From the IMG/VR virus record IMGVR_UViG_3300030339_000134, positions 1-37,083 of that record: a stretch of 37,083 nt of DNA. One strand, given 5' to 3'. Made by a program: the position numbers and the translations under genes. Under the pieces are notes generated by a model. It was not told the origin of the DNA and made no database searches. It was given only the letters and a program-made list of their open reading frames with translations. This document shows positions 1,311 through 25,011 of this stretch, one piece after another; positions within the stretch are counted from its first letter, which is position 1, and each line of letters begins with the position of its first letter. This DNA comes from a virus.

Positions 1311-1379
1311 ATGATTCGTAATTTATATATAGAGATGTGTAACGAGATTAATGATGATAATCATAAATTGACTGAATAA
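1311..1379 (+). CDS. Leader peptide 1 (putative attenuator)
   Basis: This 22-residue ORF (MIRNLYIEMC then NEINDDNHKLTE) ends 25 bases before a strong terminator stem. Sixteen of its residues are Asn, Ile, Glu, Met, Asp, Tyr or Cys, the set decoded by the tRNA array that begins at 1717. The end of the ORF, TTGACTGA at 1368-1375, is perfectly complementary to TCAGTCAA at 1409-1416, which overlaps the 5' arm of the terminator. A ribosome at the stop codon would hide the first copy and let the terminator form; a ribosome stalled earlier would leave it free. This is the logic of trp-type attenuators. No function is proven. Confidence 0.6.
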   Translation: MIRNLYIEMCNEINDDNHKLTE

Positions 1380-1716: not shown

Positions 1717-1789
1717 TGTGGCGTGGAGCAGTTGGTAGCTCGAAAGGCTCATAACCTTTAGGTCGTTGGTTCAAGTCCAACCGCCGCTT
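1717..1789 (+). tRNA. tRNA with CAT anticodon, initiator-like
   Basis: This is a complete cloverleaf: acceptor TGTGGCG/CGCCGCT, D-arm GAGC/GCTC, anticodon stem AAAGG/CCTTT with loop CTCATAA, and T-arm GTTGG/CCAAC with loop TTCAAGT. The anticodon CAT is at 1750-1752. The first acceptor pair is U1-U72, a mismatch at the position left unpaired in bacterial initiator tRNA. CCA is not encoded. Confidence 0.85.
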
Positions 1790-1802
1790 CTAATTAAATA
1801 TA

Positions 1803-1887
1803 TGCGAGATCGACTGGAGTTGGCACCAGCGGAGGCTCATAACCTTTAACCTGAAAAGGAACGGTGGTTCGAATCCACTTCTCGCTA
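1803..1887 (+). tRNA. tRNA with CAT anticodon and extra variable hairpin
   Basis: Acceptor TGCGAGA/TCTCGCT (U1-U72 unpaired), D-arm CTGG/CCAG, anticodon loop CTCATAA and T-loop TTCGAAT are visible. The variable region carries a small hairpin, CCT-GAAA-AGG, which is not expected in a Met or Ile tRNA. Confidence 0.7.
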
Positions 1888-1980
1888 CTAAAGAGTAAAA
1901 AATAGTGATTTTAATTGTGCTGTAAGGCACTGGATAATTAAAATAAATCTATTAATGACAGCGAATGCTAGTTATTCTCT
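1888..1980 (+). other. Structured spacer between tRNA genes
   Basis: ATTTTAATT and AATTAAAAT enclose a GTGC/GCAC hairpin, and AGAG near 1892 can pair with CTCT near 1976. I see no T-loop or anticodon arm, so I do not call a tRNA. It may guide processing of the polycistronic transcript. Bases 2055-2160 also hold small hairpins (TTACGA/TCGTAA, TCCTG/CAGGA) without a recognisable gene. Confidence 0.35.
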
Positions 1981-1986
1981 TAAAAA

Positions 1987-2054
1987 TGCGAGGTGATAGG
2001 TGTCCGTCGAGGCTCATAACCTTTGATTTCTGGGGTCAGTTCCCAGCCTCGCTT
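1987..2054 (+). tRNA. Divergent tRNA-like gene, CAT anticodon
   Basis: Acceptor TGCGAGG/CCTCGCT has U1-U72 unpaired, the anticodon loop is CTCATAA, and the T-stem is CTGGG/CCCAG. The T-loop reads GTCAGTT rather than TTCRANY, and the D region is several bases short. It may be a decaying copy of the two preceding genes. Confidence 0.5.
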
Positions 2055-2204
2055 CTAAGATTAAGATTACGAAATGTCGTAAGATAATAGTTATTAAGTT
2101 AACCGTAATTGAGTGGTCCTGATGGAATGACAGGATAATGTCCCAATAGGCTGCGCCACCTTAATTTATTTTAAGTAAAAAATTAAAAGAAAAAGATTAA
2201 AATT

Positions 2205-2294
2205 ATGAAGTACAATATGAACATATGTGAAAGTTATCGCAACATTAATATAAATATTAATGATGATGAGAATATTGTATTCTTGGACTGGTAA
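2205..2294 (+). CDS. Leader peptide 2, rich in Asn and Ile (putative attenuator)
   Basis: This 29-residue ORF (MKYNMNICESYRNINI, then NINDDENIVFLDW) precedes a terminator and the main tRNA array. Seven Asn, five Ile, three Asp, two Tyr, two Glu, two Met and one Cys make up 22 of 29 residues; the following array (2449-4370) decodes exactly these seven amino acids. The last codons hold GGACTGG (2285-2291), perfectly complementary to CCAGTCC in and just after the 5' arm of the terminator. The arrangement matches module 1 and the Gln module at 12197. I infer that a shortage of charged tRNA stalls the ribosome early, frees GGACTGG and allows read-through into the array. Confidence 0.65.
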   Translation: MKYNMNICESYRNINININDDENIVFLDW

Positions 2295-2318
2295 ATTAGT
2301 TTTTTTTAGAAAACATAA

Positions 2319-2352
2319 AACCCAGTCCTTCAACAAAGAACTGGGTTTTTTG
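2319..2352 (+). terminator. Rho-independent terminator of module 2
   Basis: AACCCAGT (2319-2326) pairs with ACTGGGTT (2340-2347) and runs into T-rich sequence. Its 5' arm competes with pairing to the end of the leader ORF at 2285-2291. Confidence 0.85.
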
Positions 2353-2422
2353 TTTGTTCATTGAAATGTTGGAATTAAAAAAGTATTTATGTGATATATG
2401 ATGTGAATCATTTAAGCACACG

Positions 2423-2441
2423 ATGGCTAAACGATAGCCAT
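2423..2441 (+). other. Hairpin upstream of a tRNA
   Basis: ATGGCTA-AACGA-TAGCCAT forms a perfect 7-bp stem eight bases before the tRNA at 2449. A matching hairpin with a near-identical loop precedes the tRNA at 2575. Confidence 0.6.
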
Positions 2442-2448
2442 AGAAGAT

Positions 2449-2535
2449 GTTGCGGTATGCAAAATAGGACAAAGCGACCAGACTTTCAATCTGGACTCCG
2501 TATGGGGTGTGCGGGTTCGAGCCCCGTCCGCAATA
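2449..2535 (+). tRNA. tRNA with TTC anticodon and long variable arm
   Basis: Acceptor GTTGCGG/CCGCAAT (G-U at the first pair), anticodon stem CCAGA/TCTGG with loop CTTTCAA, and T-arm GCGGG/CCCGT with loop TTCGAGC are clear. TTC would decode Glu, but the variable arm (CTCC-GTAT-GGGG) is of class II type, so charging identity is uncertain. Confidence 0.75.
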
Positions 2536-2547
2536 CTTTAAAAATAA

Positions 2548-2568
2548 AGTGATTAAATGATAATCACT
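2548..2568 (+). other. Hairpin upstream of tRNA-Glu
   Basis: AGTGATTA-AATGA-TAATCACT is a perfect 8-bp stem seven bases before tRNA-Glu. It parallels the hairpin at 2423. Confidence 0.6.
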
Positions 2569-2574
2569 ACAGAT

Positions 2575-2648
2575 GCTCGGTTCGTCTAGTTGGTCAGGAC
2601 GTCAGGTTTTCATCCTGGAGATCAGGGGTTCGAATCCCCTACCGAGTA
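2575..2648 (+). tRNA. tRNA-Glu (TTC)
   Basis: A standard cloverleaf: acceptor GCTCGGT/ACCGAGT, D-loop with GG, anticodon stem TCAGG/CCTGG with loop TTTTCAT, T-arm AGGGG/CCCCT with loop TTCGAAT. CCA is absent. Confidence 0.9.
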
Positions 2649-2655
2649 CAAAAAT

Positions 2656-2750
2656 GCCGATGTAACGAAACTGGTCTGTAAAACCAATCTGCTTATCAAA
2701 TTTTCGTATTGGACTCTAGCAGTAAGTAGGTTCGAATCCTACCAGCGGCA
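2656..2750 (+). tRNA. tRNA-Tyr-like (GTA) with displaced D-arm
   Basis: Acceptor GCCGATG/CAGCGGC (one mismatch) and T-arm GTAGG/CCTAC with TTCGAAT are clear. The anticodon stem-loop GGT-CTGTAAA-ACC follows only about seven bases after position 9, leaving no room for a D-arm. About 40 bases then separate it from the T-arm; they contain CTGC/GCAG and a D-loop-like CGTATTGG. An alternative fold pairs CCAAT with ATTGG around a 19-base loop. Confidence 0.6.
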
Positions 2751-2836
2751 CAAAAAAATGAAATTGAAGAAAACTTACAGCAAATTAAAAACAATTTGAC
2801 TTTCATTCAAACCAAAATGTTTTCTGTTTTCATAAT

Positions 2837-2920
2837 GGTCTCGGGGTCTGCTTGGTGTGGACGCCTGCCTGTCACGCAGGAACCGAAAGGATCAGGAGGG
2901 TTCGAATCCCTTCGGGACCG
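2837..2920 (+). tRNA. tRNA-Asp (GTC) with extra variable hairpin
   Basis: Acceptor GGTCTCG/CGGGACC, anticodon stem CCTGC/GCAGG with loop CTGTCAC, and T-arm GAGGG/CCCTT. The discriminator G suits Asp. The variable region carries an inserted ACC-GAAA-GGA mini-hairpin, unusual for a class I tRNA. Confidence 0.85.
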
Positions 2921-2930
2921 CAAAAAAATT

Positions 2931-3018
2931 GGGTTGGTTGCTTTAGTTGGTCGACAAGTCAAGACTGTTAATCTTGTGAACGTAAGTTCCACCGTGGGTT
3001 CGAATCCCACCCTTCCCT
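2931..3018 (+). tRNA. tRNA-Asn (GTT) with extra variable hairpin
   Basis: Anticodon stem CAAGA/TCTTG with loop CTGTTAA and T-arm GTGGG/CCCAC with TTCGAAT. The variable region holds a perfect hairpin GAAC-GTAA-GTTC. The acceptor GGGTTGG/CCTTCCC has two central mismatches. Confidence 0.75.
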
Positions 3019-3022
3019 CAAT

Positions 3023-3094
3023 GGTTTTGTAGTTTAGATGTATGAATACCTCCAAGTCATGGGGTGGTTGTTGGTTCAAATCCAACCAGGACCG
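3023..3094 (+). tRNA. tRNA-like, probable GTC anticodon
   Basis: Acceptor GGTTTTG/CAGGACC and T-arm GTTGG/CCAAC with TTCAAAT are good, and the discriminator is G as in the Asp genes. The anticodon loop reads AAGTCAT, which gives GTC but puts A at position 33 where U is near-universal. An 8-base loop is also possible, so decoding is uncertain. Confidence 0.6.
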
Positions 3095-3096
3095 CA

Positions 3097-3150
3097 ATGT
3101 TTTTATAGTTTAATTGTCAGGTTAAACCTGACTACAATGATACAAAACAT
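3097..3150 (+). other. 54-base tRNA-like element without a T-arm
   Basis: ATGTTTT (3097-3103) pairs perfectly with AAAACAT (3144-3150) like an acceptor stem. Inside, GTCAG-GTTAAAC-CTGAC makes a 5-bp stem with a 7-base loop centred on TAA. There is no T-arm and no D-stem. It resembles minimal mitochondrial tRNAs or may simply be a processing hairpin. Confidence 0.35.
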
Positions 3151-3175
3151 AAGTTATTTGAAATATTTAAGAAAT

Positions 3176-3249
3176 AGTGCTGTAGTTCAATTGGTTAGAG
3201 TACCTGGTTGTCAACCAGGAAGTTGCGGGTTCGAGTCCCGTCAGCACTG
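3176..3249 (+). tRNA. tRNA-Asp (GTC)
   Basis: A textbook cloverleaf: acceptor AGTGCTG/CAGCACT, anticodon stem CCTGG/CCAGG with loop TTGTCAA, 5-base variable loop, T-arm GCGGG/CCCGT, discriminator G. Confidence 0.92.
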
Positions 3250-3252
3250 CAT

Positions 3253-3332
3253 GGAATTATTGAGCAATCGGTTGCTTAGCAGACTGTAAATCTGTGGCTT
3301 CGGCATTGGGGGTTCGAATCCCTCTAATTCCA
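3253..3332 (+). tRNA. tRNA-Tyr (GTA)
   Basis: Acceptor GGAATTA/TAATTCC is perfect, the anticodon loop is CTGTAAA, and the long variable arm is normal for bacterial Tyr. The T-loop is TTCGAAT. Confidence 0.92.
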
Positions 3333-3341
3333 CAAAGAATT

Positions 3342-3414
3342 AGTCTATAGGTCAAACGGTTAAGATGTCGCCCTGTCACGGCGCACGGAGCGGGTTCAAC
3401 TCCCGTATAGACTG
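3342..3414 (+). tRNA. tRNA-Asp (GTC)
   Basis: Acceptor AGTCTAT/ATAGACT, anticodon stem CGCC/GGCG with loop CTGTCAC, T-arm GCGGG/CCCGT with loop TTCAACT, discriminator G. Another copy of the Asp isoacceptor in the array. Confidence 0.9.
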
Positions 3415-3421
3415 CAAAAAT

Positions 3422-3503
3422 GTTAGTGTGCCCGAGTGGTTGAAGGGGTCGGCTTGCAAACCCGATAAAAACAAACGCATGTGTTCGAATCACATCACTA
3501 ACT
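3422..3503 (+). tRNA. tRNA-Cys (GCA)
   Basis: Acceptor GTTAGTG/CACTAAC is perfect and the T-arm is ATGTG/CACAT. The anticodon loop TTGCAAA sits in a TCGG/CCGA stem. The variable region is about 13 bases, longer than normal for Cys, with no clear hairpin. Confidence 0.85.
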
Positions 3504-3511
3504 CAAAAAAT

Positions 3512-3593
3512 GACGCTGTGGTTGAATTGGTTTAGGCATCAGTCTGCAAAACTGAGGAGAAATCTAATGTGGGTTCGAGTCCCACCAGCGTTT
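3512..3593 (+). tRNA. tRNA-Cys (GCA) with extended variable loop
   Basis: Acceptor GACGCTG/CAGCGTT, anticodon stem CAGT/ACTG with loop CTGCAAA, T-arm GTGGG/CCCAC. The variable region can form a short GGA-GAAA-TCT hairpin. Confidence 0.87.
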
Positions 3594-3602
3594 CAAATAA
3601 AT

Positions 3603-3676
3603 AGGCGTATCATCTAAATTGGTAAGGATACATCTCTGATAAGGATGCAATTTCGGTTCAAGACCGAGTATGCCTA
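3603..3676 (+). tRNA. tRNA-Ile (GAT)
   Basis: Acceptor AGGCGTA/TATGCCT, anticodon stem CATCT/GGATG with loop CTGATAA, T-arm TTCGG/CCGAG, discriminator A. Confidence 0.9.
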
Positions 3677-3686
3677 CAAAATATTT

Positions 3687-3771
3687 ACCGCAGTGATCAG
3701 AGCGGCTATTGAAGAAGTTTCATAAGCTTTTGTTCGTAAGAACATCGTGGGTTCGAGTCCCACTTGCGGTA
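3687..3771 (+). tRNA. tRNA with CAT anticodon and variable hairpin
   Basis: Acceptor ACCGCAG/TTGCGGT is paired at 1-72, unlike the other CAT genes, which suggests elongator Met or lysidine-type Ile. The anticodon stem GAAGT/GCTTT has loop TTCATAA. The variable region holds a perfect GTTC-GTAA-GAAC hairpin. Confidence 0.75.
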
Positions 3772-3845
3772 CTAAGGAGACTGTTTAAAATTTCATAGAA
3801 CTGATATCCATATAAATGGTGTTCAGGAATCATAGAAAGGAACCA

Positions 3846-3919
3846 GGGTGTATAGCTCAACTGGTTAGAGCACCTGACTGATATTCAGGAGGTTGTAGAT
3901 TCGAGTTCTACTATACCCA
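3846..3919 (+). tRNA. tRNA-Ile (GAT)
   Basis: A standard cloverleaf with acceptor GGGTGTA/TATACCC, D-arm GCTC/GAGC, anticodon stem CCTGA/TCAGG with loop CTGATAT, and T-arm GTAGA/TCTAC. The 70 bases before it hold no gene I can define. Confidence 0.92.
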
Positions 3920-3930
3920 CAACAAGAAAT

Positions 3931-4004
3931 GGTCTGTTATGTCAATTGGTGAGACGGCAAAGCTTATATCTTTGAGGTTAGGGGTTCAAGTCCCTTACAG
4001 ACTA
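3931..4004 (+). tRNA. tRNA-Ile (TAT)
   Basis: Acceptor GGTCTGT/ACAGACT, anticodon stem CAAAG/CTTTG with loop CTTATAT, T-arm AGGGG/CCCTT. A TAT anticodon would read the AUA codon directly, rare in bacteria, which normally use a lysidine-modified CAT anticodon. Confidence 0.85.
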
Positions 4005-4009
4005 CTTAT

Positions 4010-4090
4010 ACTGGTGTACCGTTGGAAGCTTATACCTTCTATACACGTAGCGGGAAGTTGAAAACATAGGTTCGAATCCTATCATCAGTA
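4010..4090 (+). tRNA. tRNA-Ile-like (TAT), D-arm displaced
   Basis: Acceptor ACTGGTG/CATCAGT and T-arm ATAGG/CCTAT are clear. The anticodon arm GGAAG-CTTATAC-CTTCT starts about five bases after position 9, so no D-arm fits. About 25 bases with CGTAGCGGGAAGTTGA then precede the T-arm. Confidence 0.65.
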
Positions 4091-4103
4091 CAAAAATTAA
4101 TAT

Positions 4104-4183
4104 TGTGCCATACACAGCCGATTCTGATAAAATCGAGAACTGTAACGGAGTTGAAAATGTGGGTTCGAGTCTCACTGGCACAA
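4104..4183 (+). tRNA. tRNA-Ile-like (GAT), D-arm displaced
   Basis: Acceptor TGTGCCA/TGGCACA is perfect, as are the anticodon arm CGATT-CTGATAA-AATCG and the T-stem GTGGG/CTCAC. Only about six bases replace the D-arm. A 23-base segment with TGTAACGGAGTTGA lies between the anticodon arm and the T-arm. Confidence 0.65.
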
Positions 4184-4189
4184 CAAATT

Positions 4190-4277
4190 GCTCATGTTGC
4201 TTTAGTTGGTCGAAAAGTTCAGGCTGTTAACCTGATGAGAGTATTCTCCGCCGTAGGTTCGAATCCTACCGTGAGCG
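4190..4277 (+). tRNA. tRNA-Asn (GTT) with variable hairpin
   Basis: Acceptor GCTCATG/CGTGAGC, anticodon stem CAGG/CCTG with loop CTGTTAA, T-arm GTAGG/CCTAC, discriminator G. The variable region holds a GAGA-GTAT-TCTC hairpin like that of the Asn gene at 2931. Confidence 0.85.
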
Positions 4278-4298
4278 CAAATTTCAATTGTTATTTAT

Positions 4299-4370
4299 GG
4301 ATTCGTAGCTTAATGGTGAAGCAAAAAGCTGTTAACTTTGAGATTGCAGGTTCGAGTCCTATCGGAACCG
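4299..4370 (+). tRNA. tRNA-Asn (GTT)
   Basis: Anticodon stem AAAG/CTTT with loop CTGTTAA, D-arm GCTT/AAGC, T-loop TTCGAGT, discriminator G. Acceptor and T-stem each have one mismatch, so it is slightly degenerate. Confidence 0.8.
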
Positions 4371-4383
4371 CATTTTTTATAAA

Positions 4384-4423
4384 TTAAAGTTCAAAAAGTT
4401 CAAATTGGACCTTTGAACTTTAA
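4384..4423 (+). other. Strong hairpin before the HNH gene
   Basis: TTAAAGTTCAAA (4384-4395) pairs perfectly with TTTGAACTTTAA (4412-4423), ending 20 bases before the HNH start. A similar hairpin beginning TAAAGTTCAAAA precedes the endonuclease gene at 5905. In T4, hairpins near homing-endonuclease starts limit their translation, so a similar role is plausible. Confidence 0.6.
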
Positions 4424-4442
4424 TATATAGAATAAAAAACAA

Positions 4443-4997
4443 ATGTCAGAAAATAAAAATTTAAAAAATAAAGTTATTTCATTAAGAAATGAAGGTTTTA
4501 AAATGACTGAAATTGTAGTTAAATTAAATTGTAGTTTATCAACAGTAAAATATCATTGTAGTAAAAATGGATTAGCAGGTAAATCAAAAATATCAGAAGA
4601 TAATTTTGATATTATGAAAAAAATGATAAACGATGGTGTAACTCAAAAAGAAATTTCAGAAAAATTAAAAATATCAATTTCCACAATTAAAAGATATAAA
4701 GATAAATCTTTTGAAGAATTAAATAAATATAGAGGTTATATGCTTTCCTTTATGAAAGATAGAAGAAAAGATATAAAGAAACAAGCTGTTGAATATATGG
4801 GTGGTAGTTGTAAATTGTGTGGATATAATAAATGTTTTACAGCTTTATCTTTTCATCATATTGATCCTGAAACAAAAGATTTTCAAATATCTGGTACAAA
4901 TAGATGTTGGGAAAAAATAAAAAAAGAGTTAGATAAATGTGTTATGTTGTGTACTAATTGTCATTTAGAAGTACATGATGGAATAACAAAAATATAA
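4443..4997 (+). CDS. HNH homing-type endonuclease
   Basis: This 184-residue protein has two helix-turn-helix-like modules (EIVVKLNCSLSTVKYH at 24-39 and EISEKLKISISTIKRY at 70-85) followed by a C-terminal HNH domain with paired cysteines (CKLCG, CTNC), the core SFHHIDP and the final HLEVHDG. It would bind DNA through the N-terminal part and cut with the HNH part. It sits inside the tRNA array between tRNA-Asn and an interrupted tRNA-like gene that starts four bases after its stop, typical of a selfish endonuclease lodged among tRNA genes. Its low GC matches the phage. Confidence 0.88.
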   Translation: MSENKNLKNKVISLRNEGFKMTEIVVKLNCSLSTVKYHCSKNGLAGKSKISEDNFDIMKKMINDGVTQKEISEKLKISISTIKRYKDKSFEELNKYRGYMLSFMKDRRKDIKKQAVEYMGGSCKLCGYNKCFTALSFHHIDPETKDFQISGTNRCWEKIKKELDKCVMLCTNCHLEVHDGITKI

Positions 4998-5000
4998 AAT

Positions 5001-5129
5001 GGTGATGTTAGTCGTAAAGTCAGTAGATAAACTCGGATGACGGTGGTTGATAATTGTGAAAGTCAATTACTAGGAATAACGGCAACTGCAACTTAATTCA
5101 CATTGTAGGTTCGAGTCCTACCATCACCG
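5001..5129 (+). tRNA. Interrupted tRNA-like gene, anticodon unclear
   Basis: GGTGATG/CATCACC is a perfect acceptor stem and GTAGG-TTCGAGT-CCTAC a perfect T-arm, with discriminator G. The centre is nearly 100 bases instead of about 45 and no single anticodon arm is convincing; candidate stems are TAATTG/CAATTA around a 7-base loop and GTGAA/TTCAC. It is probably a tRNA with an insertion. Confidence 0.5.
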
Positions 5130-5298
5130 CAGGGGGAAGCTGTATTCTTGACATAGTTGAATTGACAACGGTAAGTAGAGGTTGAATGTCAGATTTGTCC
5201 CAAAAAAGGAAGATCACAACCTCATCCTACACTTGGTAATAAATAAGAGTAACCAAATTACTGATAAAGCTATAACGGTAAAGAAACTCTTAAAAAAT
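5130..5298 (+). other. Structured non-coding spacer
   Basis: Nested pairings such as GAGGTTG/CAACCTC, TGACAT/ATGTCA and AAGAGT/ACTCTT suggest a folded RNA ending just before the tRNA at 5299. I compared it with tmRNA and group I introns and found no diagnostic element. It could be a tRNA-processing element or a decayed tRNA. Confidence 0.35.
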
Positions 5299-5419
5299 GG
5301 GGAAGTAGCTCAGTTGGTAGAGCAGCGGATGCAAAAAATGTAATTTGTAAAAATTATAAACAGCACAAAAAAACGCAACCTGGAACCGTGTGTCGGACAT
5401 TCGAATCGTCCCTTCCCCA
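5299..5419 (+). tRNA. tRNA-Pro (TGG) candidate with 50-base insertion
   Basis: Acceptor GGGGAAG/CTTCCCC, D-arm GCTC-AGTTGGTA-GAGC and T-loop TTCGAAT are clear. Removing 5331-5380 leaves an anticodon arm GCGG-ATTGGAA-CCGT with U33 and anticodon TGG, plus a normal 5-base variable loop. The insertion is AT-rich and contains a hairpin of GTAATTT with AAATTAT. It is too short for a normal group I or II intron. Confidence 0.55.
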
Positions 5420-5484
5420 CAATTTAATGAAGTAGTGATTCATTATAGAGAAATAAAAAGAAAACTTACAGCGATATAAAAATC

Positions 5485-5550
5485 GTTTCTGTAGTTCAAT
5501 GGTTAGAATGATTCTTCGGAATTGTGTTGGTTCAAGTCCAACTGGAAATA
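5485..5550 (+). tRNA. tRNA-like gene lacking an anticodon loop
   Basis: Acceptor GTTTCTG/TGGAAAT (with wobble pairs), D-arm GTTC/GAAT and T-arm GTTGG-TTCAAGT-CCAAC are intact. Where the anticodon arm should be there is only ATTC-TTCG-GAAT, a hairpin closed by a UUCG tetraloop, so no anticodon is presented. It may be a pseudogene or a tRNA mimic. It is 66 bases long. Confidence 0.5.
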
Positions 5551-5581
5551 AATAAATTGTTTTCTGATTCTCTGAGGCACT

Positions 5582-5740
5582 GGTTATATGGCGGAAATAG
5601 ACGCTATTGTATATTTTTAAGACCAAAAAAGTTTTGAATATAGAATGATGTAAAATGACATATCGAAAGTTGGATGGTAACTATTGACGAATAGTGAGAG
5701 AACCCAACCTTTTACAATAAAGGTAATCCTTTTATAACCA
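5582..5740 (+). pseudogene. Degenerate tRNA-Leu-like gene with insertions
   Basis: GGTTATA (5582-5588) pairs with TATAACC (5733-5739), and a Leu-like D region (TGGCGGAAATAGACGC) follows the 5' arm. A T-stem AAAGG/CCTTT remains, but its loop is reduced to TAAT, as if three bases were deleted from TTCGAAT. A TAA-like anticodon may lie near 5616-5620. The total of 159 bases implies further insertions, including ACTATT/AATAGT. Confidence 0.4.
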
Positions 5741-5746
5741 AATATG

Positions 5747-5818
5747 GGCTCTTCGTATAATTGGTGAGTATGCATCTCTGATAAGGATGTGATCCTGGAT
5801 CGTTCCCAGGAGAGCCTA
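5747..5818 (+). tRNA. tRNA-Ile (GAT)
   Basis: Acceptor GGGCTCT/AGAGCCT, D-arm in normal position (CGTATAATTGGTGAGTAT), anticodon stem CATCT/GGATG with loop CTGATAA, T-stem CCTGG/CCAGG. The T-loop ATCGTTC departs from TTCRANY. Confidence 0.8.
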
Positions 5819-5837
5819 CAAATTTTATAAATATGAA

Positions 5838-5873
5838 AAATAAAGTTCAAAATAGAAAAATATGACTTTATTT
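5838..5873 (+). other. Hairpin before the second endonuclease gene
   Basis: AAATAAAGT (5838-5846) pairs with ACTTTATTT (5865-5873). The 5' arm shares TAAAGTTCAAAA with the hairpin before the HNH gene, and a TTTATATATA promoter-like sequence follows. Confidence 0.5.
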
Positions 5874-5904
5874 TATTTATATATAAGATAAAAGAATATA
5901 TTTT

Positions 5905-6915
5905 ATGCCAAGCATTAAAGATACTGATTATTATAAATCTGGTAAATTGTTAGAAAATTCAAAAAAAGCAAATATTAAATCAACAGAAGTTTTAATCAAG
6001 TTAAAAAAAGAAAGAATTGAAGATTATAATAATAATCCAAAATTATGTAAAGAGTGCCAATGTGCTTTATCTTATGAAAAAAGAAATAATAAGTTTTGTT
6101 CAAGTTCTTGTTCAGCATCATTTAATAATAAAAAAAGAAGTTTAACGGAAGAAACTAAAAATAAAATTTCAAAATCATTAAAAAAAGGAGAAATTGTACA
6201 AAAAAAATGTTTATATTGCGAAAAAGAATTTGAAATAGAATGGAGTTTAAGACATCAAAAATTTTGTAGTAAAAGTTGTGCATCAAAAAATAGGGCTAAA
6301 ACTCCTATTAAAATAAAAAAGACTGAACATCCAAGAGTAATTGAAAAAGTTTGTGAACGCTGTCAAAAGAAATATATTGTGAATTGGTGGTCTAAAGATA
6401 TACAAAAATATTGTGGTCTTAGTTGTTCGTCTAAGCGTCCAAAAACAGCAGGAACAAAAGAAAAATTATCAAAAAATGTATCTGAAAAAATTAAAAACGG
6501 TACATTTAAACCACAATTAACAAGTATAAAATGTTTTTATAAATTTAATGATAAAGAAATTCGATGTGATTCTAAAGTTGAGTATAGTTGTTTGAATTAT
6601 TTTGAAAACAAGTTTGAGGTTTTAGATATTGAAAGATGTGATTTTTTAATTGATTTTAATTATAATGGAATTAATAAAAAATATAATCCAGATTTTAAAA
6701 TAACTACCATTAATGATGTATATATTGTTGAATGTAAAACAATCTTATCATCAAAAGAACTTGTTAGAAAATGGTCATATTATTATGATACAATAGAATA
6801 TAAAAAGATAGTATTAGATAAGTATTGTAAAGAAAACAATTTTTTATCTTTCAACTACAATAAAGATATGAATAGTGTGTTTTATAAAAATTGTAAACCA
6901 CAATTAATTGGTTAA
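5905..6915 (+). CDS. Zinc-finger PD-(D/E)XK-like homing endonuclease
   Basis: This 336-residue protein has three cysteine clusters of the form CxxC then FCS/YCG xxC (CKECQC..FCSSSC near 48-70, CLYCEK..FCSKSC near 102-125, CERCQK..YCGLSC near 150-173), apparent zinc modules for DNA binding. The C-terminal third has SKVEYSC, YNPDF and VECKT in the order E...PD...ExK, the active-site pattern of PD-(D/E)XK nucleases. Location in a tRNA array next to an HNH gene, plus the shared upstream hairpin, supports a homing-type mobile gene. Nuclease activity is inferred from motif order. Confidence 0.7.
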   Translation: MPSIKDTDYYKSGKLLENSKKANIKSTEVLIKLKKERIEDYNNNPKLCKECQCALSYEKRNNKFCSSSCSASFNNKKRSLTEETKNKISKSLKKGEIVQKKCLYCEKEFEIEWSLRHQKFCSKSCASKNRAKTPIKIKKTEHPRVIEKVCERCQKKYIVNWWSKDIQKYCGLSCSSKRPKTAGTKEKLSKNVSEKIKNGTFKPQLTSIKCFYKFNDKEIRCDSKVEYSCLNYFENKFEVLDIERCDFLIDFNYNGINKKYNPDFKITTINDVYIVECKTILSSKELVRKWSYYYDTIEYKKIVLDKYCKENNFLSFNYNKDMNSVFYKNCKPQLIG

Positions 6916-6994
6916 TAATTACTTTCTAAATAAATAAAAAAAATATGAGGAGATTTTACGGATATTAGGTTAAATAAAAAATAACCTTAATATT

Positions 6995-7219
6995 ATGAAA
7001 CCGTTCAAGAAGTCAAAAGTTGCAAGAATGACAACTTGCAGAAAAGAGTACAAAATTGTCACAAATCCTGATATGTGTGAACCATATTGGGATGAGGGTT
7101 TAACATTTTATCCTAGATACAGAAGAGGATTTAAGAACCCAACAAAAAGAATAATGAGTTATCAAGTTAGAATGTATAAAACTTGGAAACACAATAGAAA
7201 GAAACAATGGAAAATATAA
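6995..7219 (+). CDS. Small basic protein
   Basis: This 74-residue protein is dominated by Lys, Arg, Tyr and Trp (MKPFKKSKVARMTT, then MYKTWKHNRKKQW). It has two cysteines (residues 15 and 28), which do not form a zinc motif. The charge suggests contact with nucleic acid; I do not recognise it. It lies between the second endonuclease and the tRNA at 7273. A hairpin, ATTAGGTTA with TAACCTTAAT, ends just before its start. Confidence 0.65.
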   Translation: MKPFKKSKVARMTTCRKEYKIVTNPDMCEPYWDEGLTFYPRYRRGFKNPTKRIMSYQVRMYKTWKHNRKKQWKI

Positions 7220-7272
7220 ACACTGGAAGGTGTTTTTTGCACTATAATAATACGTAATAAAAGTAGTGTATT

Positions 7273-7347
7273 TGCGACATAGCGTAGCCTGGTTAGCGCA
7301 ACCGTAAGATGAGCGGGAGGTCAGTGGTTCAAATCCACTTGTCGCAA
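7273..7347 (+). tRNA. tRNA, probably Ile (GAT), atypical loop
   Basis: Acceptor TGCGACA/TGTCGCA is perfect, with D-arm GCG/CGC and T-arm AGTGG/CCACT. The anticodon stem CCGT/GCGG encloses loop AAGATGA, giving GAT but with A at position 33, as in the gene at 3023. Confidence 0.7.
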
Positions 7348-7361
7348 CAAAATAAATAAAA

Positions 7362-7601
7362 ATGATGGAAACAAAAGTTTTTAAATCTGCAGCTCAAGTT
7401 AGACTTGATGAAGAAAACAGAATAATTAAAGAAATAGATAAAGAGATTAAGAAAAGTGCAAAAAAAGGTGATTTTCACTATTACTGGGATATATCTGGGC
7501 TAAGTCAATTTATGGTAAAAAGTATAATTGAAAAAATAGAAAGTCAGCCAGGTAGATTTGTTAATAGTAAAGGTACTAATTTTAAGATAATTAGGTGGTA
7601 A
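7362..7601 (+). CDS. Small hypothetical protein
   Basis: A 79-residue protein of mixed charge (VFKSAAQVRLDEENRIIKEI, then HYYWDISGLSQFMVKSIIEK). The middle reads like a helix with a small beta-rich end (GRFVNSKGTNFKIIRW). Two ATGs stand in tandem at 7362 and 7365 and either may be used. It lies between two tRNA genes, eight bases before the next. Family unknown. Confidence 0.65.
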   Translation: MMETKVFKSAAQVRLDEENRIIKEIDKEIKKSAKKGDFHYYWDISGLSQFMVKSIIEKIESQPGRFVNSKGTNFKIIRW

Positions 7602-7608
7602 AAAATAT

Positions 7609-7703
7609 TACGCTTTGGAGAAATGGAAAGTAGTCCAAAAAAGATACAATCTCGTCCCGGATCATAAGCGGGAAAGAAATAGGTTCGATTCCTATAGGCG
7701 TTA
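7609..7703 (+). tRNA. tRNA with CAT anticodon and enlarged D-loop
   Basis: Acceptor TACGCTT/AGGCGTT again has U1-U72 unpaired. The D-stem GAGA/TCTC encloses about 28 bases instead of 8-11. The anticodon stem TCCCG/CGGGA holds a loop centred on CAT, and the T-arm is ATAGG/CCTAT with TTCGATT. Confidence 0.65.
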
Positions 7704-7717
7704 CTAAAATTAATTGA

Positions 7718-8206
7718 ATGAATTTTGGAATATATACATTATGTCTTGAGAATTTTTTGAGAAAAAGATTTGCTAAGTTAGAATTAGAGTTTATTAAATT
7801 ACCTATTTTTGAAGGTGGCTGGGGAAATGGATATGTTCTATTGCCGCACAATCATCCACTTTATGAAAAAAATTATGATGATTTAAGAGTTTATGCTCAT
7901 AGAGGATTAACATATAGCAATTATTTTTCAACTAAATTTTTGAATAATTCTGAAAGTTTAGAGTTAGAGATTGATGGTGATGTAAATCGAGAAAATTGTG
8001 AAAAATTTAATAAATATTGGATGATTGGATTTGACACTAATCATTTGAATGACAATTTAACTAATTGTACAAAAGAATATGTTATGGATGAAGTTCAATC
8101 TTTATTAGATCAATGTTTAGATAATGATATTGAAGGAATGAAGAAATATAAAAATTTTTATTCAAGAAGAGATAAGTTAAAGAAATTGAATAGTTTAATG
8201 CCCTAG
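7718..8206 (+). CDS. Hypothetical protein overlapping a tRNA
   Basis: A 162-residue protein with an aromatic middle (EGGWGNGYVLLPHNHPLYEK, then RVYAHRGLTYSNYF) and an acidic second half. The GxGYVxLPxxHP pattern recalls small phage beta-fold proteins, but I do not recognise a family. Its stop codon TAG (8204-8206) lies inside the acceptor stem of the tRNA at 8200, so translation and tRNA processing share sequence. It follows tRNA 7609 by 14 bases. Confidence 0.7.
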   Translation: MNFGIYTLCLENFLRKRFAKLELEFIKLPIFEGGWGNGYVLLPHNHPLYEKNYDDLRVYAHRGLTYSNYFSTKFLNNSESLELEIDGDVNRENCEKFNKYWMIGFDTNHLNDNLTNCTKEYVMDEVQSLLDQCLDNDIEGMKKYKNFYSRRDKLKKLNSLMP

Positions 8207-8280
8207 TAATAGCCTCGTCTTCGAAACGAGAGACGTATAATTGGAAAGTGAGAATGTGGGTTCGAGTCCCACCTGGGGTA
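8200..8280 (+). tRNA. tRNA-Arg-like (TCG), D-arm displaced
   Basis: Acceptor GCCCTAG/CTGGGGT, anticodon arm CTCGT-CTTCGAA-ACGAG and T-arm GTGGG/CCCAC are clear. Only ATAGC stands where the D-arm should be. The 25 bases after the anticodon arm contain CGTATAATTGG, identical to the D-arm sequence of tRNA-Ile at 5747. Confidence 0.7.
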
Positions 8281-8293
8281 CAACAAATTATAT

Positions 8294-8366
8294 GTGCCTA
8301 TAGTGTAAATGGAAACATATCTGTCTACGAAATAGAAGATTGAAGGTTCGACTCCTTTTAGGCATA
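8294..8366 (+). tRNA. tRNA-Arg (ACG)
   Basis: A normal cloverleaf: acceptor GTGCCTA/TAGGCAT, D-arm GTGT/ACAT, anticodon stem TCTGT/ATAGA with loop CTACGAA, T-arm GAAGG/CCTTT. A34 would be edited to inosine by the host. Confidence 0.9.
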
Positions 8367-8386
8367 CTTGAAAACCATACTTAAAA

Positions 8387-8557: not shown

Positions 8558-8923
8558 TCATATATTATATTTAGTTGTATATTTTAATTCTGGAAGATTT
8601 TTAATTACTTCTTCTAATGAATCTGATTGAAATATTACATTATTTTTAAATTCATCTGTTGTAACCTCAAAAAAATCATCAGTTGATCCTTTTAGTACAT
8701 TATTTTCAAAATCATAAAGATATAATCTTTTTAATGTTATTAATTTAGCGGTAGAACTTGTTATTTTTATTAATATAGCATATATAAATTTTGCATCCCA
8801 TACAATATATTTTACATCTTTACATACAATATATTTTACATCTTTATTAGAATTATCTGATTGAGTACCTAACAAAGTATTTGTCTGAAGAATTTTAATT
8901 TCATATGTTTTTATGTATTTCAT
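8558..8923 (-). CDS. MKYIKTYE...KYNI cassette protein
   Basis: A 121-residue protein starting MKYIKTYEIKILQT and ending YTTKYNI, the shared termini of the cassette family. The middle contains a near-tandem duplication (VKYIVCKDVKYIVWD) and beta-rich sequence (FIYAILIKITSSTAKL). The N-terminus resembles T4 capsid-targeting sequences, so packaging into the head is a hypothesis. Its ATG overlaps the TGA of a tiny ORF at 8920-8976 inside the conserved seam. Confidence 0.75.
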   Translation of the reverse strand: MKYIKTYEIKILQTNTLLGTQSDNSNKDVKYIVCKDVKYIVWDAKFIYAILIKITSSTAKLITLKRLYLYDFENNVLKGSTDDFFEVTTDEFKNNVIFQSDSLEEVIKNLPELKYTTKYNI

Positions 8924-8935
8924 AAATTATATTTA
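8901..8935 (-). repeat. Cassette seam repeat
   Basis: Read on the minus strand this is AAATATAATTTATG followed by AAATACATAAAAACAT. It joins the end of the tiny ORF 8920-8976 to the start of the gene at 8923 and matches the seams at 30014-31937. Confidence 0.7.
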
Positions 8936-8976
8936 TTTATGTTTCGTTTTAATTCTTTTTCTTCAAAGTTTGTCAT
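8920..8976 (-). CDS. 18-codon cassette remnant ending KYNL
   Basis: The ORF MTNFEEKELKRNINKYNL starts at 8976 and its TGA overlaps the ATG of the next cassette. Retention of the terminal KYNL in so short a frame suggests a deleted cassette whose seam was kept. Confidence 0.35.
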   Translation of the reverse strand: MTNFEEKELKRNINKYNL

Positions 8977-8997
8977 TTTCTTAAATATTTCAAATTC

Positions 8998-9354
8998 TTA
9001 TTCTGGCGTAAATCCATTTAGGCGACAGGTATAATATGTTTCTTCTCCAGTTGAATAATTAGTTATATCTGCATCGGTTGATGAGTATGAAATGCCGACA
9101 TGAAATCTATTGGATGATGGTTCTGTTGTATATTTTTTATATTTTAAAAATTCAACTGCTTTATCAACTGCTGTTATATTATCTTCTAAATCGTATTCAT
9201 CTGGTATCATTGATTCGCCATCGTCATCTTCCCATCCTTGATCTGAATAATCACCAGTTTCTAAACTTTCAGGTGTTGTACGTTGAAATGTTGTAGTAAT
9301 AGTTTTATCATTTATTGGATTTTCAAATAATTCATTAAATTTTTTTATCTTCAT
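8998..9354 (-). CDS. Capsid-targeting-like hypothetical protein
   Basis: A 118-residue acidic protein starting MKIKKFNELFENPIND, a variant of the MKxIKxFE start and close in style to T4 internal-protein leaders. It lacks the KYNL end. The middle is strongly acidic (WEDDDGESMIPDEYDLED) and the end beta-like with many Tyr and Thr. Function unknown. It is transcribed toward the cassette genes at 8920-8923. Confidence 0.7.
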   Translation of the reverse strand: MKIKKFNELFENPINDKTITTTFQRTTPESLETGDYSDQGWEDDDGESMIPDEYDLEDNITAVDKAVEFLKYKKYTTEPSSNRFHVGISYSSTDADITNYSTGEETYYTCRLNGFTPE

Positions 9355-9415
9355 ATATTATATATTATTTTTTTATTAGAACTTTTATATAATAATATAT
9401 AAAATAAAAAAGTAA

Positions 9416-9700
9416 ATGAATAAAGTAGAAGAAATTTTCAAATCTTGGATGATTAGCTTTGATCCTAGTCAAGAACAAGCAGATTTAGCAATAAAGAGAA
9501 TAGAAATATGTGATGCTTGTGAATTTAGGGTTTTGACTCCTATTGGACCATTTTTTAATATTGCAAAATGCTCTGTTTGTGGATGTAGCTTGAAACAAAA
9601 AATTTTTACACCAATAACATATAAAGATCCAGGTGGATCATGCCCACATTCGAAATGGTCTTTTGTAGAAGATGAATGGTTAAATAGCAAAAATTTATGA
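9416..9700 (+). CDS. Small zinc-ribbon protein
   Basis: A 94-residue protein with cysteine pairs CDAC (32-35) and CSVCGC (about 52-57), then SCPHSKW (near 77-83), consistent with a zinc ribbon. Similar short proteins with a C-terminal CPxxKW motif occur in phages, from memory. It may bind nucleic acid or protein. The next gene overlaps its stop by four bases (ATGA), so the two are translationally coupled. Confidence 0.75.
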   Translation: MNKVEEIFKSWMISFDPSQEQADLAIKRIEICDACEFRVLTPIGPFFNIAKCSVCGCSLKQKIFTPITYKDPGGSCPHSKWSFVEDEWLNSKNL

Positions 9701-10044
9701 AAGAATACTCACTTATACCTAAACATAAATCAGATGTTCAATTTAATGGTGATATAATTTACAATAAGAGTTGGATTGTTCCTTATATTAGAAATGTTAG
9801 AAATGAATTTGATCAGAGATATGATGAGATAAAAAAGCAATATGATAAGTTAATAGATGAGGTTTATTGGAATAACATTATCTATAATATAGAGTTACGA
9901 TTTCAGCCAGTAATAGGAAATAGTTATTATTTATACAAAGATGATGAAAAATATATTATTTCTATTATTGGTCCTGATGAATGGAAAAAAGAATTTGTTG
10001 GAACTTTTCAATTTGAATATACTGGAAAATGGATTAAATGCTAA
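9697..10044 (+). CDS. DUF2452-like protein
   Basis: A 115-residue protein whose second half reads FQPVIGNSYYLYKDD then IISIIGPDEWKKEFVG, the GxxYYLY...Lxxx(P)xEW pattern of the DUF2452 family. The N-terminal half is a helix rich in Tyr, Lys and Asp. Function is not known. It overlaps the zinc-ribbon gene upstream and converges with the ankyrin gene at 10041, sharing four bases at the stops. Confidence 0.65.
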   Translation: MKEYSLIPKHKSDVQFNGDIIYNKSWIVPYIRNVRNEFDQRYDEIKKQYDKLIDEVYWNNIIYNIELRFQPVIGNSYYLYKDDEKYIISIIGPDEWKKEFVGTFQFEYTGKWIKC

Positions 10045-10412
10045 AGATTATATTTTTTTGTTGAAACAAATGCCGGATATTCTTTTTCAATCCATTTTGA
10101 TAATTTTTTATATTCTTTATCTACGCTTAAATCATAGAAATCTACCATTTTTTTTGCAGTAAATGAACCTGTTCCTTTTATAATGCCGCATGCTCTGTGA
10201 TTCATATCTGCGCCAGAGTTAATTAATAATTTTATCATATTTCTATTTCCATAATATGTTGCCCATAATAATGGGGTCCATCCTATACGATCTGTACAAT
10301 TAACGTCTAAGTTAATATCTAATAATTTTTTAACATTTTTCCAATTTCCAGATTTAACTGCTATAATTAGATCAGGTGAACCTACTTCTTCAAATGTTTT
10401 TATATATTTCAT
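10041..10412 (-). CDS. Ankyrin-repeat cassette protein
   Basis: A 123-residue protein starting MKYIKTFEEVGSPD and ending KKYNL. The body has ankyrin-type repeats: AVKSGNWKNVKKLLDINLDV, DRIGWTPLLWATYYGNRNM and IKLLINSGADMN. Ankyrin repeats bind proteins, so this may be an effector that contacts host factors. It shares both termini with the other cassettes and follows a seam directly. Confidence 0.85.
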   Translation of the reverse strand: MKYIKTFEEVGSPDLIIAVKSGNWKNVKKLLDINLDVNCTDRIGWTPLLWATYYGNRNMIKLLINSGADMNHRACGIIKGTGSFTAKKMVDFYDLSVDKEYKKLSKWIEKEYPAFVSTKKYNL

Positions 10413-10425
10413 ATGTTATATTTAT
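10390..10425 (-). repeat. Cassette seam repeat
   Basis: Read on the minus strand, AAATATAACATATG is followed by AAATATATAAAAACATTTGA. It also encodes the NKYNI end of the frameshifted cassette upstream. Confidence 0.7.
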
Positions 10426-10688
10426 TAGCCATAATTTTTATTTCTACTTCTTTTTTTGTTTTTCCAAATGCTTCAATAGAAGATATTGAAAATACTTTGC
10501 TATTATTTAATATCAAGTATTTCAAATATTTTTGGATTATTTAAAAGTGAAATTAGTATATTAAATTGATCTTGGAAAATTTTTATCCAAGCATATTCTT
10601 CACTATCATCATCTGGATTATTTTTAACATATTCCCAATCTATATTTCTATTACATTCACCAGTTTCAAAGTATTTTAAATATTTCAT
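10409..10688 (-). pseudogene. Frameshifted cassette gene (MKYLKYFE...)
   Basis: From 10688 the frame reads MKYLKYFETGECNRNIDW and stops at 10503 after FEILDIK. A frame shifted by one base continues past that point (LNNSKVFSISSIEAFGK, then MANKYNI) to a TGA at 10409-10411 that overlaps the next ATG. The second frame carries the expected family terminus, so the original gene probably ran across and has been frameshifted. Alternatively the 61-residue product is real. Confidence 0.5.
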
Positions 10689-10700
10689 ATATTGAATTTT
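10664..10700 (-). repeat. Cassette seam repeat
   Basis: On the minus strand AAATTCAATATATG precedes AAATATTTAAAATACTTTGA, joining the KKFNI end of gene 10685 to the MKYLKYFE start. Confidence 0.6.
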
Positions 10701-10933
10701 TTTATATTATATAATTCAATAATTTTGGCTTCTCCGGCCCTCCTATATGGCTCAATATAAAGTACAATTTTTGTGTCAATTTTTTTCATTTCAACTACCC
10801 AATCTTTTTCTTCAATATTTATATAATATTTAACTATTTTAGTTAATGCTTCACCTAATTGAATAACTTCAGTAGGTAATTTTTTTCTTAATAAATTTGT
10901 TATAAAATTATCGTATGTTTTTGTGTATTTCAT
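10685..10933 (-). CDS. MKYTKTYD...KKFNI cassette protein
   Basis: An 82-residue protein beginning MKYTKTYDNFITNLLRKKLP and ending NIKKFNI. The middle is helical, then beta-like (KIVLYIEPYRRAGEAKIIEL). It shares the cassette termini and overlaps the downstream cassette by four bases. A TTTATATATA-type sequence, read on the minus strand, lies just upstream (10930-10945) and may be its promoter. No catalytic motif is seen. Confidence 0.7.
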   Translation of the reverse strand: MKYTKTYDNFITNLLRKKLPTEVIQLGEALTKIVKYYINIEEKDWVVEMKKIDTKIVLYIEPYRRAGEAKIIELYNIKKFNI

Positions 10934-10963
10934 AAACTTATATATAAAAAAGAGAATATTAAT

Positions 10964-10995
10964 TTTGTTTATTCAAAAAAATATTTGTATCTTTG
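10964..10995 (+). promoter_or_regulatory. Complete Bacteroidota promoter
   Basis: TTTG at 10964-10967, exactly 20 bases, then TATCTTTG at 10988-10995. It precedes the lipoprotein gene at 11020 and is one of the best matches in the window. Confidence 0.8.
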
Positions 10996-11019
10996 TGAAT
11001 AATATAAAAATAAAAAAAT

Positions 11020-11466: not shown

Positions 11467-11493
11467 ATAATTTTTTTATTTAAAAAATAGTTG

Positions 11494-11501
11494 TATCTTT
11501 G
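11494..11501 (+). promoter_or_regulatory. -7 element TATCTTTG before a structured leader
   Basis: TATCTTTG lies 28 bases after the lipoprotein stop and would start a transcript running through a hairpin-rich region and the interrupted tRNA at 11696. Confidence 0.5.
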
Positions 11502-11534
11502 TCCTGATTCAAAACACGGTGGCTTCGTGTTCAA

Positions 11535-11621
11535 ATGATAGATAACATACCATCTTTCACGCTTATTCGTGGAAAAGGTGCAGTGCCATTGTCCAAAAAA
11601 GACAAAATGTTAAAATTTTAA
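11535..11621 (+). CDS. Short ORF, possible leader peptide
   Basis: A 28-residue frame (MIDNIPSFTLIRGKGAVPLS, then KKDKMLKF) whose last codons and stop lie inside the left arm of a 16-bp inverted repeat. The layout recalls the three attenuator-like leaders, but there is no T-run terminator. It may be chance. Confidence 0.3.
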   Translation: MIDNIPSFTLIRGKGAVPLSKKDKMLKF

Positions 11622-11651
11622 TAATAAAATAATAATATTAAAATTTTAACA
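11608..11651 (+). other. Perfect 16-bp inverted repeat
   Basis: TGTTAAAATTTTAATA (11608-11623) is exactly repeated in reverse complement at 11636-11651 with a 12-base loop. No T-run follows, so it is not a standard terminator. It lies 44 bases before the interrupted tRNA. Confidence 0.65.
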
Positions 11652-11695
11652 AAGATTGACTATCAGAAAGGAAAAGTTCGCAACTTACCAAAAAT

Positions 11696-11875
11696 TTTAT
11701 TGTAGTGCAATTGGATAGCATCGGAGGCAACTGAAAAATAATTTTTGTTTAGGATTAATTAACCTATGATGAATTTATACAGACCTATGGTTTCAAAAGA
11801 TACGGAGTAATTGCCAAAAAATATGAAATTGACGTGATTAACACGTAGATTTAGGTTCGAGTCCTAACGATAAAA
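11696..11875 (+). tRNA. Interrupted tRNA-like gene, possibly Phe (GAA)
   Basis: Acceptor TTTATTG/CGATAAA is perfect, with D-arm GTGC-AATTGGATA-GCAT and T-arm TTAGG-TTCGAGT-CCTAA. A candidate anticodon arm is GGCAA-CTGAAAA, but its partner TTGCC lies at 11811-11815, after a 73-base insertion. A further 35 bases with a CGTG/CACG hairpin precede the T-arm. Identity is uncertain. Confidence 0.5.
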
Positions 11876-12141: not shown

Positions 12142-12196
12142 AAAAAATATCAAAAATAGAAAAAACTTAATAAAAAAACATTTATATATAACAAAT

Positions 12197-12250
12197 ATGA
12201 AAAACTTATTTAACACAGTTCAGCAACAACAACAGATGAATTCCGTCTGA
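12197..12250 (+). CDS. Gln leader peptide (putative attenuator)
   Basis: A 17-residue ORF, MKNLFNTVQQQQQMNSV, with five consecutive Gln codons (12221-12235: CAG CAA CAA CAA CAG). Its end, CGTCTGA (12244-12250, containing the stop), pairs perfectly with TCAGACG (12283-12289), and the adjacent TTGGGT pairs with AACTCAA, the 5' arm of the terminator. The antiterminator of about 13 bp and the terminator exclude each other. The first genes downstream are tRNA-Gln (TTG), tRNA-Gln (TTG) and tRNA-Gln (CTG). This fits charging-dependent attenuation: stalling at Gln codons leaves the antiterminator free. A TTTATATATA promoter-like sequence lies 16 bases upstream. Confidence 0.75.
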   Translation: MKNLFNTVQQQQQMNSV

Positions 12251-12274
12251 TTGGGTGAACTATGTTCTTTTCTT

Positions 12275-12303
12275 AACTCAAGTCAGACGATTTGGGTTTT
12301 TTT
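12275..12303 (+). terminator. Terminator of the Gln attenuator
   Basis: AACTCAA (12275-12281) pairs with TTTGGGTT (12291-12298), one G-U, and a T-run follows. The loop contains TCAGACG, which pairs with the leader stop region in the alternative fold. Confidence 0.75.
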
Positions 12304-12315
12304 ATTTTAAAAAAT

Positions 12316-12386
12316 TGCTCTGTAACATAATGTAGTGTGACACCCCTTGAAGGTGTTCGGTGTTGGTTCAAGTCCAACCAGAGTAA
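12316..12386 (+). tRNA. tRNA-Gln (TTG)
   Basis: Acceptor TGCTCTG/CAGAGTA, anticodon stem ACACC/GGTGT with loop CCTTGAA, T-arm GTTGG/CCAAC with TTCAAGT. C at position 33 is unusual. It is the first gene after the Gln attenuator. Confidence 0.83.
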
Positions 12387-12402
12387 CAAAAATATTAAAT
12401 AT

Positions 12403-12474
12403 TGCCTTGTTATGTAATGGCTAGCATACAACACTTTGAATGTTGGAGTCATGGTTCGAATCCATGCAAGGCAA
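12403..12474 (+). tRNA. tRNA-Gln (TTG)
   Basis: Acceptor TGCCTTG/CAAGGCA is perfect; anticodon stem CAACA/TGTTG with loop CTTTGAA; T-loop TTCGAAT. A normal cloverleaf. A truncated D-arm-like fragment (12503-12530, GCCCCATAGTGTAGTGG) follows and may be a broken tRNA. Confidence 0.9.
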
Positions 12475-12539
12475 CAAATAACAACAAGTTATTTTAAATT
12501 TATTGCCCCATAGTGTAGTGGTGGGGCTTCAAAAAATAT

Positions 12540-12610
12540 TGCTCAGTAGCATAATGTTGTGCATCTGCCTCTGAAGCAGCAGGCTGAAGGTTCAAGTCCT
12601 TCCTGAGCAA
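12540..12610 (+). tRNA. tRNA-Gln (CTG)
   Basis: Acceptor TGCTCAG/CTGAGCA is perfect; anticodon stem CTGC/GCAG with loop CTCTGAA; T-arm GAAGG/CCTTC. It reads CAG, so the three genes cover both Gln codons used in the leader peptide. Confidence 0.9.
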
Positions 12611-12652
12611 CAATAATTTAAACTCCAATCTTTATTTTTTATATAAAAGGTT

Positions 12653-24486: not shown

Positions 24487-24516
24487 AAAAACTCACATAA
24501 AAGTGAGTTTTTTTTA
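24487..24516 (-). terminator. Terminator after the ankyrin cassettes
   Basis: ACTCAC (24491-24496) and GTGAGT (24503-24508) form a stem with A/T runs on both sides, right after the KYNL end of the ankyrin gene at 24514. Confidence 0.8.
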
Positions 24517-25011
24517 TAAATTATATTTATCTATTTGTTTTTTTCTTAGATATTTTTCAAATTGTTCTGGATATTTGTCCTTTATTGGTGTTATATAATA
24601 CCCTGTTAAAGAATCAATAAAATCTTCATCATCATTATTTTTAATATTCCAATCTGCTCCAGCCATAATTAATTCTTCTAATGTATTTTCTATATAAATA
24701 TCTTTTTCCCAACCTGTTCTAACAGTATGTTTTATAAACCTATCTCTTGCAGCACTAATTAATGGAGTATGTCCAAATTTATCTTTAATATTTAATTTTG
24801 CACCATATTTAATTAATTCTTTTACCATGTCTGTATTACAATTAGATACAGCAATTGATAATAAATAATTATTAAATTTATCTTTAATGTTTGGATCTGC
24901 ACCATCTTTGAGTGCTTTTTTAGCCCTGTCAATTTTATTTTGATGTATGGACTTTTCTAAATCTAATTGTATATTTTGATTTATTGATTCGAATGTTTTT
25001 AAATGTTTCAT
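24514..25011 (-). CDS. Ankyrin-repeat cassette protein
   Basis: A 165-residue protein starting MKHLKTFESINQN and ending IDKYNL. Three to four ankyrin repeats are visible: KIDRAKKALKDGADPNIKDK, YLLSIAVSNCNTDMVKELIK, YGAKLNIKDKFGHTPLISAA and LEELIMAGADWNIKNNDDED. It would bind a protein partner. Same termini and seam as the other cassettes; the ATG overlaps the TGA of the neighbouring ankyrin cassette. Confidence 0.87.
   Translation of the reverse strand: MKHLKTFESINQNIQLDLEKSIHQNKIDRAKKALKDGADPNIKDKFNNYLLSIAVSNCNTDMVKELIKYGAKLNIKDKFGHTPLISAARDRFIKHTVRTGWEKDIYIENTLEELIMAGADWNIKNNDDEDFIDSLTGYYITPIKDKYPEQFEKYLRKKQIDKYNL

Follow-up and report, generated by a model that had tools for sequence, protein, structure and literature searches.

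Predicted codon-sensing attenuators precede tRNA arrays and aminoacyl-tRNA synthetase genes in very large bacteriophages

Results

A Gln-codon leader precedes three tRNA-Gln genes

The stretch of DNA analysed here, referred to as the window, comprises positions 1 to 37,083 of IMG/VR virus record IMGVR_UViG_3300030339_000134. Upstream of an array of three tRNA-Gln genes, it contains a short open reading frame followed by an intrinsic terminator, with the following layout:

12197-12250, plus strand: 17-codon leader ORF MKNLFNTVQQQQQMNSV with stop codon TGA and the Gln codons CAG CAA CAA CAA CAG at 12221-12235
12233-12249, plus strand: predicted protector hairpin (1:2), CAGATG (12233-12238) with CGTCTG (12244-12249)
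12244-12289, plus strand: antiterminator (2:3), 12244-12256 with 12275-12289
12275-12305, plus strand: intrinsic terminator (3:4), stem 12275-12298, with T-run
12316-12611, plus strand: three tRNA-Gln genes, TTG (12316-12387), TTG (12403-12475) and CTG (12540-12611)

The leader carries the only run of five CAR codons on either strand of the window, and five Gln in 15 residues has p = 2.6e-5 against the window's proteome. In the antiterminator, CGTCTGA (12244-12250) pairs with TCAGACG (12283-12289), and TTGGGT (12251-12256) pairs with AACTCAA (12275-12281) around a bulged G12282, which excludes the terminator. The folding energy of the region has a z-score of -3.1 against shuffles. These data confirm the observations of an earlier note, made from the sequence alone, which described the leader, the mutually exclusive pairings and the gene order and inferred trp-type attenuation. 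The protector helix, not mentioned in that note, completes a full 1:2, 2:3, 3:4 attenuator.

To evaluate the proposed switch, the RNA downstream of a ribosome placed at each codon was folded, with free RNA starting 15 nt after the first base of the A-site codon. The probability of the terminator is 0.63-0.94 for codons 1-8, 0.00-0.01 for codons 9-12, being the first four Gln codons, and 0.93-0.94 from codon 13, the last Gln codon, to the stop. The probability of the antiterminator is 0.98-0.99 with the ribosome on codons 9-11, while the protector hairpin is predicted when the ribosome is at early codons. In this calculation the switch opens on the Gln codons and nowhere else, although the exact edge depends on the assumed footprint and codon 13 should not be over-read.

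Two further leaders in the window carry mixed codons

We next examined whether this architecture recurs, using a scan for a terminator, a short ORF ending 11-42 nt before it and an arm near the end of the ORF (arm A) that is complementary to the 5' arm of the terminator, irrespective of the encoded residues. In the window three sites were found, all before tRNA arrays, against 0.16 per dinucleotide shuffle. In addition to the Gln leader, these are:

1311-1379, plus strand: leader 1, MIRNLYIEMCNEINDDNHKLTE, whose arm TTGACTGA pairs with TCAGTCAA of the terminator that follows (stem within about 1400-1435)
2205-2294, plus strand: leader 2, MKYNMNICESYRNINININDDENIVFLDW, whose arm GGACTGG pairs with CCAGTCC of the terminator that follows (stem within about 2316-2350)
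1717-8367, plus strand: tRNA arrays downstream of leaders 1 and 2 (Met, Glu, Asp, Asn, Tyr, Cys, Ile, Arg), interrupted by HNH-like and other ORFs

Of the 43 residues of leaders 1 and 2 that precede arm A, 36 belong to the amino acids of the downstream arrays, where 41% is expected (p = 1.3e-8), although this target set was chosen after seeing the data. Both leaders are kept in a relative, L027, with in-frame 3-nt indels in leader 2 and a compensated three-way change in the arms of leader 1. Between intact tRNA genes of the window, at 1801-2060, 4100-4180, 11480-11870 and 12503-12535, tRNA-like sequences not called by ARAGORN were seen by eye, namely CAT-anticodon elements and partial tRNAs.

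Leader codons match the downstream tRNA and synthetase genes in related phages

Relatives were sought using several genes as starting points. A PTH2-like protein led to three huge uncultured phages, LR756502, LR756500 and LR745206, and GlnRS led to nine more IMG/VR contigs, six of which yielded leaders. By contrast, the 25 loci reached through the HAD-like gene downstream of the Gln array are not syntenic with tRNA arrays and served as background, and ORF 217-741 has no relatives in the viral contig and phage collections searched. In total, the same architecture precedes tRNA arrays or aminoacyl-tRNA synthetase genes in 16 phage records of up to 642 kb, amounting to 80 leaders. In LR745206 (635 kb), the scan finds 19 terminators against 3-6 in shuffles, 14 of them before tRNA or synthetase genes. 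Without an arm filter, 28 of 49 tRNA-proximal terminators have complementarity with p < 0.05, these loci including relatives.

The leaders there read as lists of the tRNAs that follow: QQQQQQQ before four tRNA-Gln and GlnRS; SSRSRSS before Arg, Ser, Arg; NLNMNLNTLTVVNN before Asn, Leu, Val, Ile, Thr; HKHFSKLNKWF before Phe, His, Lys; TYPLGQAQTLGTPP before Ala, Leu, Pro, Tyr, Gln, Gly; and VHIIHIWEHLLEEV before His, Glu, Val, Trp. Leaders before synthetase genes match as well: VVVNV before ValRS, IIII before IleRS, LLLPL before LeuRS, NNRNR before AsnRS followed by an ArgRS-like gene, DD..D before AspRS in three phages and FNFFF before the PheS-related 'mystery ligase' SrmL. The synthetases were named from NCBIfam and Pfam matches, some of which are short or below the curated cut-off (LeuRS, ValRS, ArgRS-like, HisRS). 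The match is poorer for the HisRS leaders, which hold a single His codon, and for one AspRS leader (locus L168), which matches weakly. The SrmL gene (NF051887; locus L138, 6321-7397, minus strand; leader at LR745206 614980-615030) has no relatives in the viral contig collection; its leader suggests phenylalanine as its substrate or tRNA-Phe as its partner.

For 61 leader-target pairs, the mean fraction of cognate residues before arm A is 0.43, against 0.152 +/- 0.016 when targets are permuted (0 of 20000 permutations). The same holds when permuting within phages, and for LR745206 (14 pairs) and LR756502 (9 pairs) alone. These single-genome tests address the fact that not all pairs are independent, because leaders of one family recur in related phages. 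The three pairs of the window alone are not significant by permutation, because only six arrangements exist. Importantly, huge phages reached through LeuRS, and not through leaders, gave a separate set of 19 pairs with a mean of 0.57 against 0.184 +/- 0.039 (0 of 20000), including NNNNQQQYQQNN before Asn, Gln, Tyr, Gln and LSLSLSLSLS before Leu, Ser, Leu.

As loss of the Gln run with retention of tRNA-Gln would argue against the earlier note, the relatives were inspected for this feature. In ten phages, including the window, the dedicated Gln leader sits directly before a tRNA-Gln array, and where tRNA-Gln is part of a mixed array, the leader is mixed and still carries Gln codons (cases W02, G011 and G013). 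One partial exception is a tRNA-Gln-containing array of G012, where the scan found no leader. The interpretation of the note is supported, with regulation itself still inferred, but it is too narrow, since the Gln leader is one of a family of predicted switches, many with mixed codons and some in front of synthetase genes.

Genomic context and distribution of the leaders

A Bacteroidetes-type TAnnTTTG promoter element lies within 120 nt upstream of the leader start in 40 of 61 cases against 10% background, the three leaders of the window not being among them. Additionally, a motif like TTTAATATATA lies about 8-20 nt before many leader ATGs (in the window at 12180-12196) and may be a phage promoter giving very short 5' ends. 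In the window, LR756502 and LR745206 together, 115 of 127 ARAGORN tRNAs lie within 3.5 kb downstream of a leader.

The feature is, however, not general to phage tRNA clusters, as the arrays of phage T4 and crAss001, a small control, gave no leader. Similarly, G015 (L145, L191, L192), a 452-kb phage contig with 42 tRNAs scattered among genes, shows no leader in the parts searched. The expectation that every LeuRS copy has its own leader was not borne out: about 20 of 28 LeuRS relatives have no leader directly upstream, though several lie near the leader of a tRNA array. tRNAs with anticodon CTA, called Pyl by ARAGORN, occur in leader-bearing phages (LR756500 near 110652, minus strand; L177 of G011; L185 of G013), with TAG recoding as a possibility.

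Folding of the leaders as a group

Over the 61 leaders, equilibrium folding gives a full switch in only 8, and the others need kinetic trapping of the antiterminator, that is, its formation before the 3' arm of the terminator is made. Folding is compatible with this possibility, as the probability of the antiterminator at that stage has a median of 0.95 at cognate stalls and 0 at the stop codon, in agreement with the model for nearly all leaders. Without a ribosome, the antiterminator is predicted for many leaders, so untranslated RNA would read through.

Discussion

The leaders, complementarities, gene order, codon/tRNA matching and recurrence in relatives, together with the in silico switching of the window's Gln leader, suggest ribosome-mediated transcription attenuation of phage tRNA and synthetase operons, a reading to which we assign a probability of roughly 0.9 in the absence of transcript or protein data. 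In this model, of which translation of the leaders, stalling, read-through, feedback and physiological purpose are inferred, the ribosome stalls on the regulatory codons if charged cognate tRNA is scarce. Arm A, which starts a median of 12 nt after the start of the last cognate codon, then stays free and pairs with the 5' arm of the terminator, so that transcription continues into the cognate tRNA genes and, in some operons, the cognate synthetase gene. If the ribosome reaches the stop codon, it covers arm A, the terminator folds and transcription ends. As new tRNA removes the stall, each array would limit itself.

The attenuators of the enterobacterial trp, his and leu operons likewise have a leader ORF with regulatory codons just upstream of the switch and mutually exclusive antiterminator and terminator, and share with the window's Gln locus a protector hairpin. 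Here, however, the controlled genes would be tRNA genes, so the switch would make the very molecule whose shortage it senses, many leaders carry a mixed list of codons matching a mixed array, and the switches are found in phages, with one per array. The synthetase leaders seem comparable to the E. coli pheST attenuator, in which a Phe-codon leader precedes a synthetase operon, but they are phage-encoded, several occur in one genome, one leader serves two synthetases (Asn+Arg) and another serves tRNA-Gln plus GlnRS. T-box riboswitches also sense the state of one tRNA to switch transcription, but probably bind it directly without a leader ORF, and a search of the window against Rfam 15 at gathering thresholds found only tRNA. 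Up to 67 tRNAs and up to 15 synthetases per phage were described for huge phages (Mahaphage; Al-Shayeb et al. 2020, PMC7162821), to which, as we infer from length and source, LR756502 and LR745206 belong; the main text of that study does not mention leaders or attenuation. We found no earlier report of ribosome-mediated attenuation controlling tRNA genes, nor of leaders listing several amino acids to match a mixed array, among the open-access papers searched, so that an earlier report elsewhere cannot be excluded.

Why phages carry tRNA arrays is an old open question. If the switches work as read, the phages state in their own leaders which tRNA shortages they react to, which makes the purpose of phage tRNAs directly testable, and the leaders also predict the specificity of divergent synthetases such as SrmL. 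A possible physiological variant, compatible with the same mechanism and overlapping with it, is that the switch is set mainly by tRNA loss rather than by amino-acid shortage, host anticodon nucleases or decay of host tRNA stalling the leader ribosome and the phage replacing exactly the missing tRNA. In line with this, phage tRNAs are reported to evade tRNA-targeting defences (PMC10264068, PMC11555353), an RNA ligase-like gene lies in the window, and most arrays encode tRNA without a synthetase, which, we infer, would help little against amino-acid starvation. On the other hand, synthetase genes under the same kind of leader point to charging as well, and this variant remains tentative without infection data. 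Speculatively, and less likely than not, huge phages of Bacteroidetes may run a genome-wide, amino-acid-resolved tRNA supply system, in which each array or synthetase operon sits behind its own leader, and any cause of a missing tRNA, including cleavage by host defence nucleases, switches on replacement of exactly that tRNA and then shuts itself off.

It is very unlikely that the leaders are merely constitutive processing or insulation elements with non-regulatory ORFs. Terminators and hairpins are common between phage operons, and 5 of the 19 scan hits in LR745206 have no tRNA or synthetase assigned downstream, but this does not explain why leader residues list the downstream tRNAs or synthetase in two separate sets, or why the cognate codons end just before arm A. 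An arrest-peptide switch of the tnaC or erm type, although it would also combine a short leader peptide with a downstream RNA switch, is least likely, since peptide sequences differ between families and also within the Gln family, where the Gln run and a short following stretch are what stays, and what is kept is codon identity matched to the downstream genes.

Apart from the tRNA arrays, the window carries unusual cargo for a phage at 16523-20245 (minus strand), where Pfam matches indicate an ABC transporter ATPase, a permease and a large OmpA-domain protein in a row. Moreover, a family of small proteins encoded within 8558-11000, 24514-25424 and 30025-32400 begin MKYIKTFE or MKHIKTFE and mostly end TKYNL or TKYNI but are otherwise dissimilar; a similar start (MKHLKKYNE) recurs in LR756502, and it could be a shared targeting tag.
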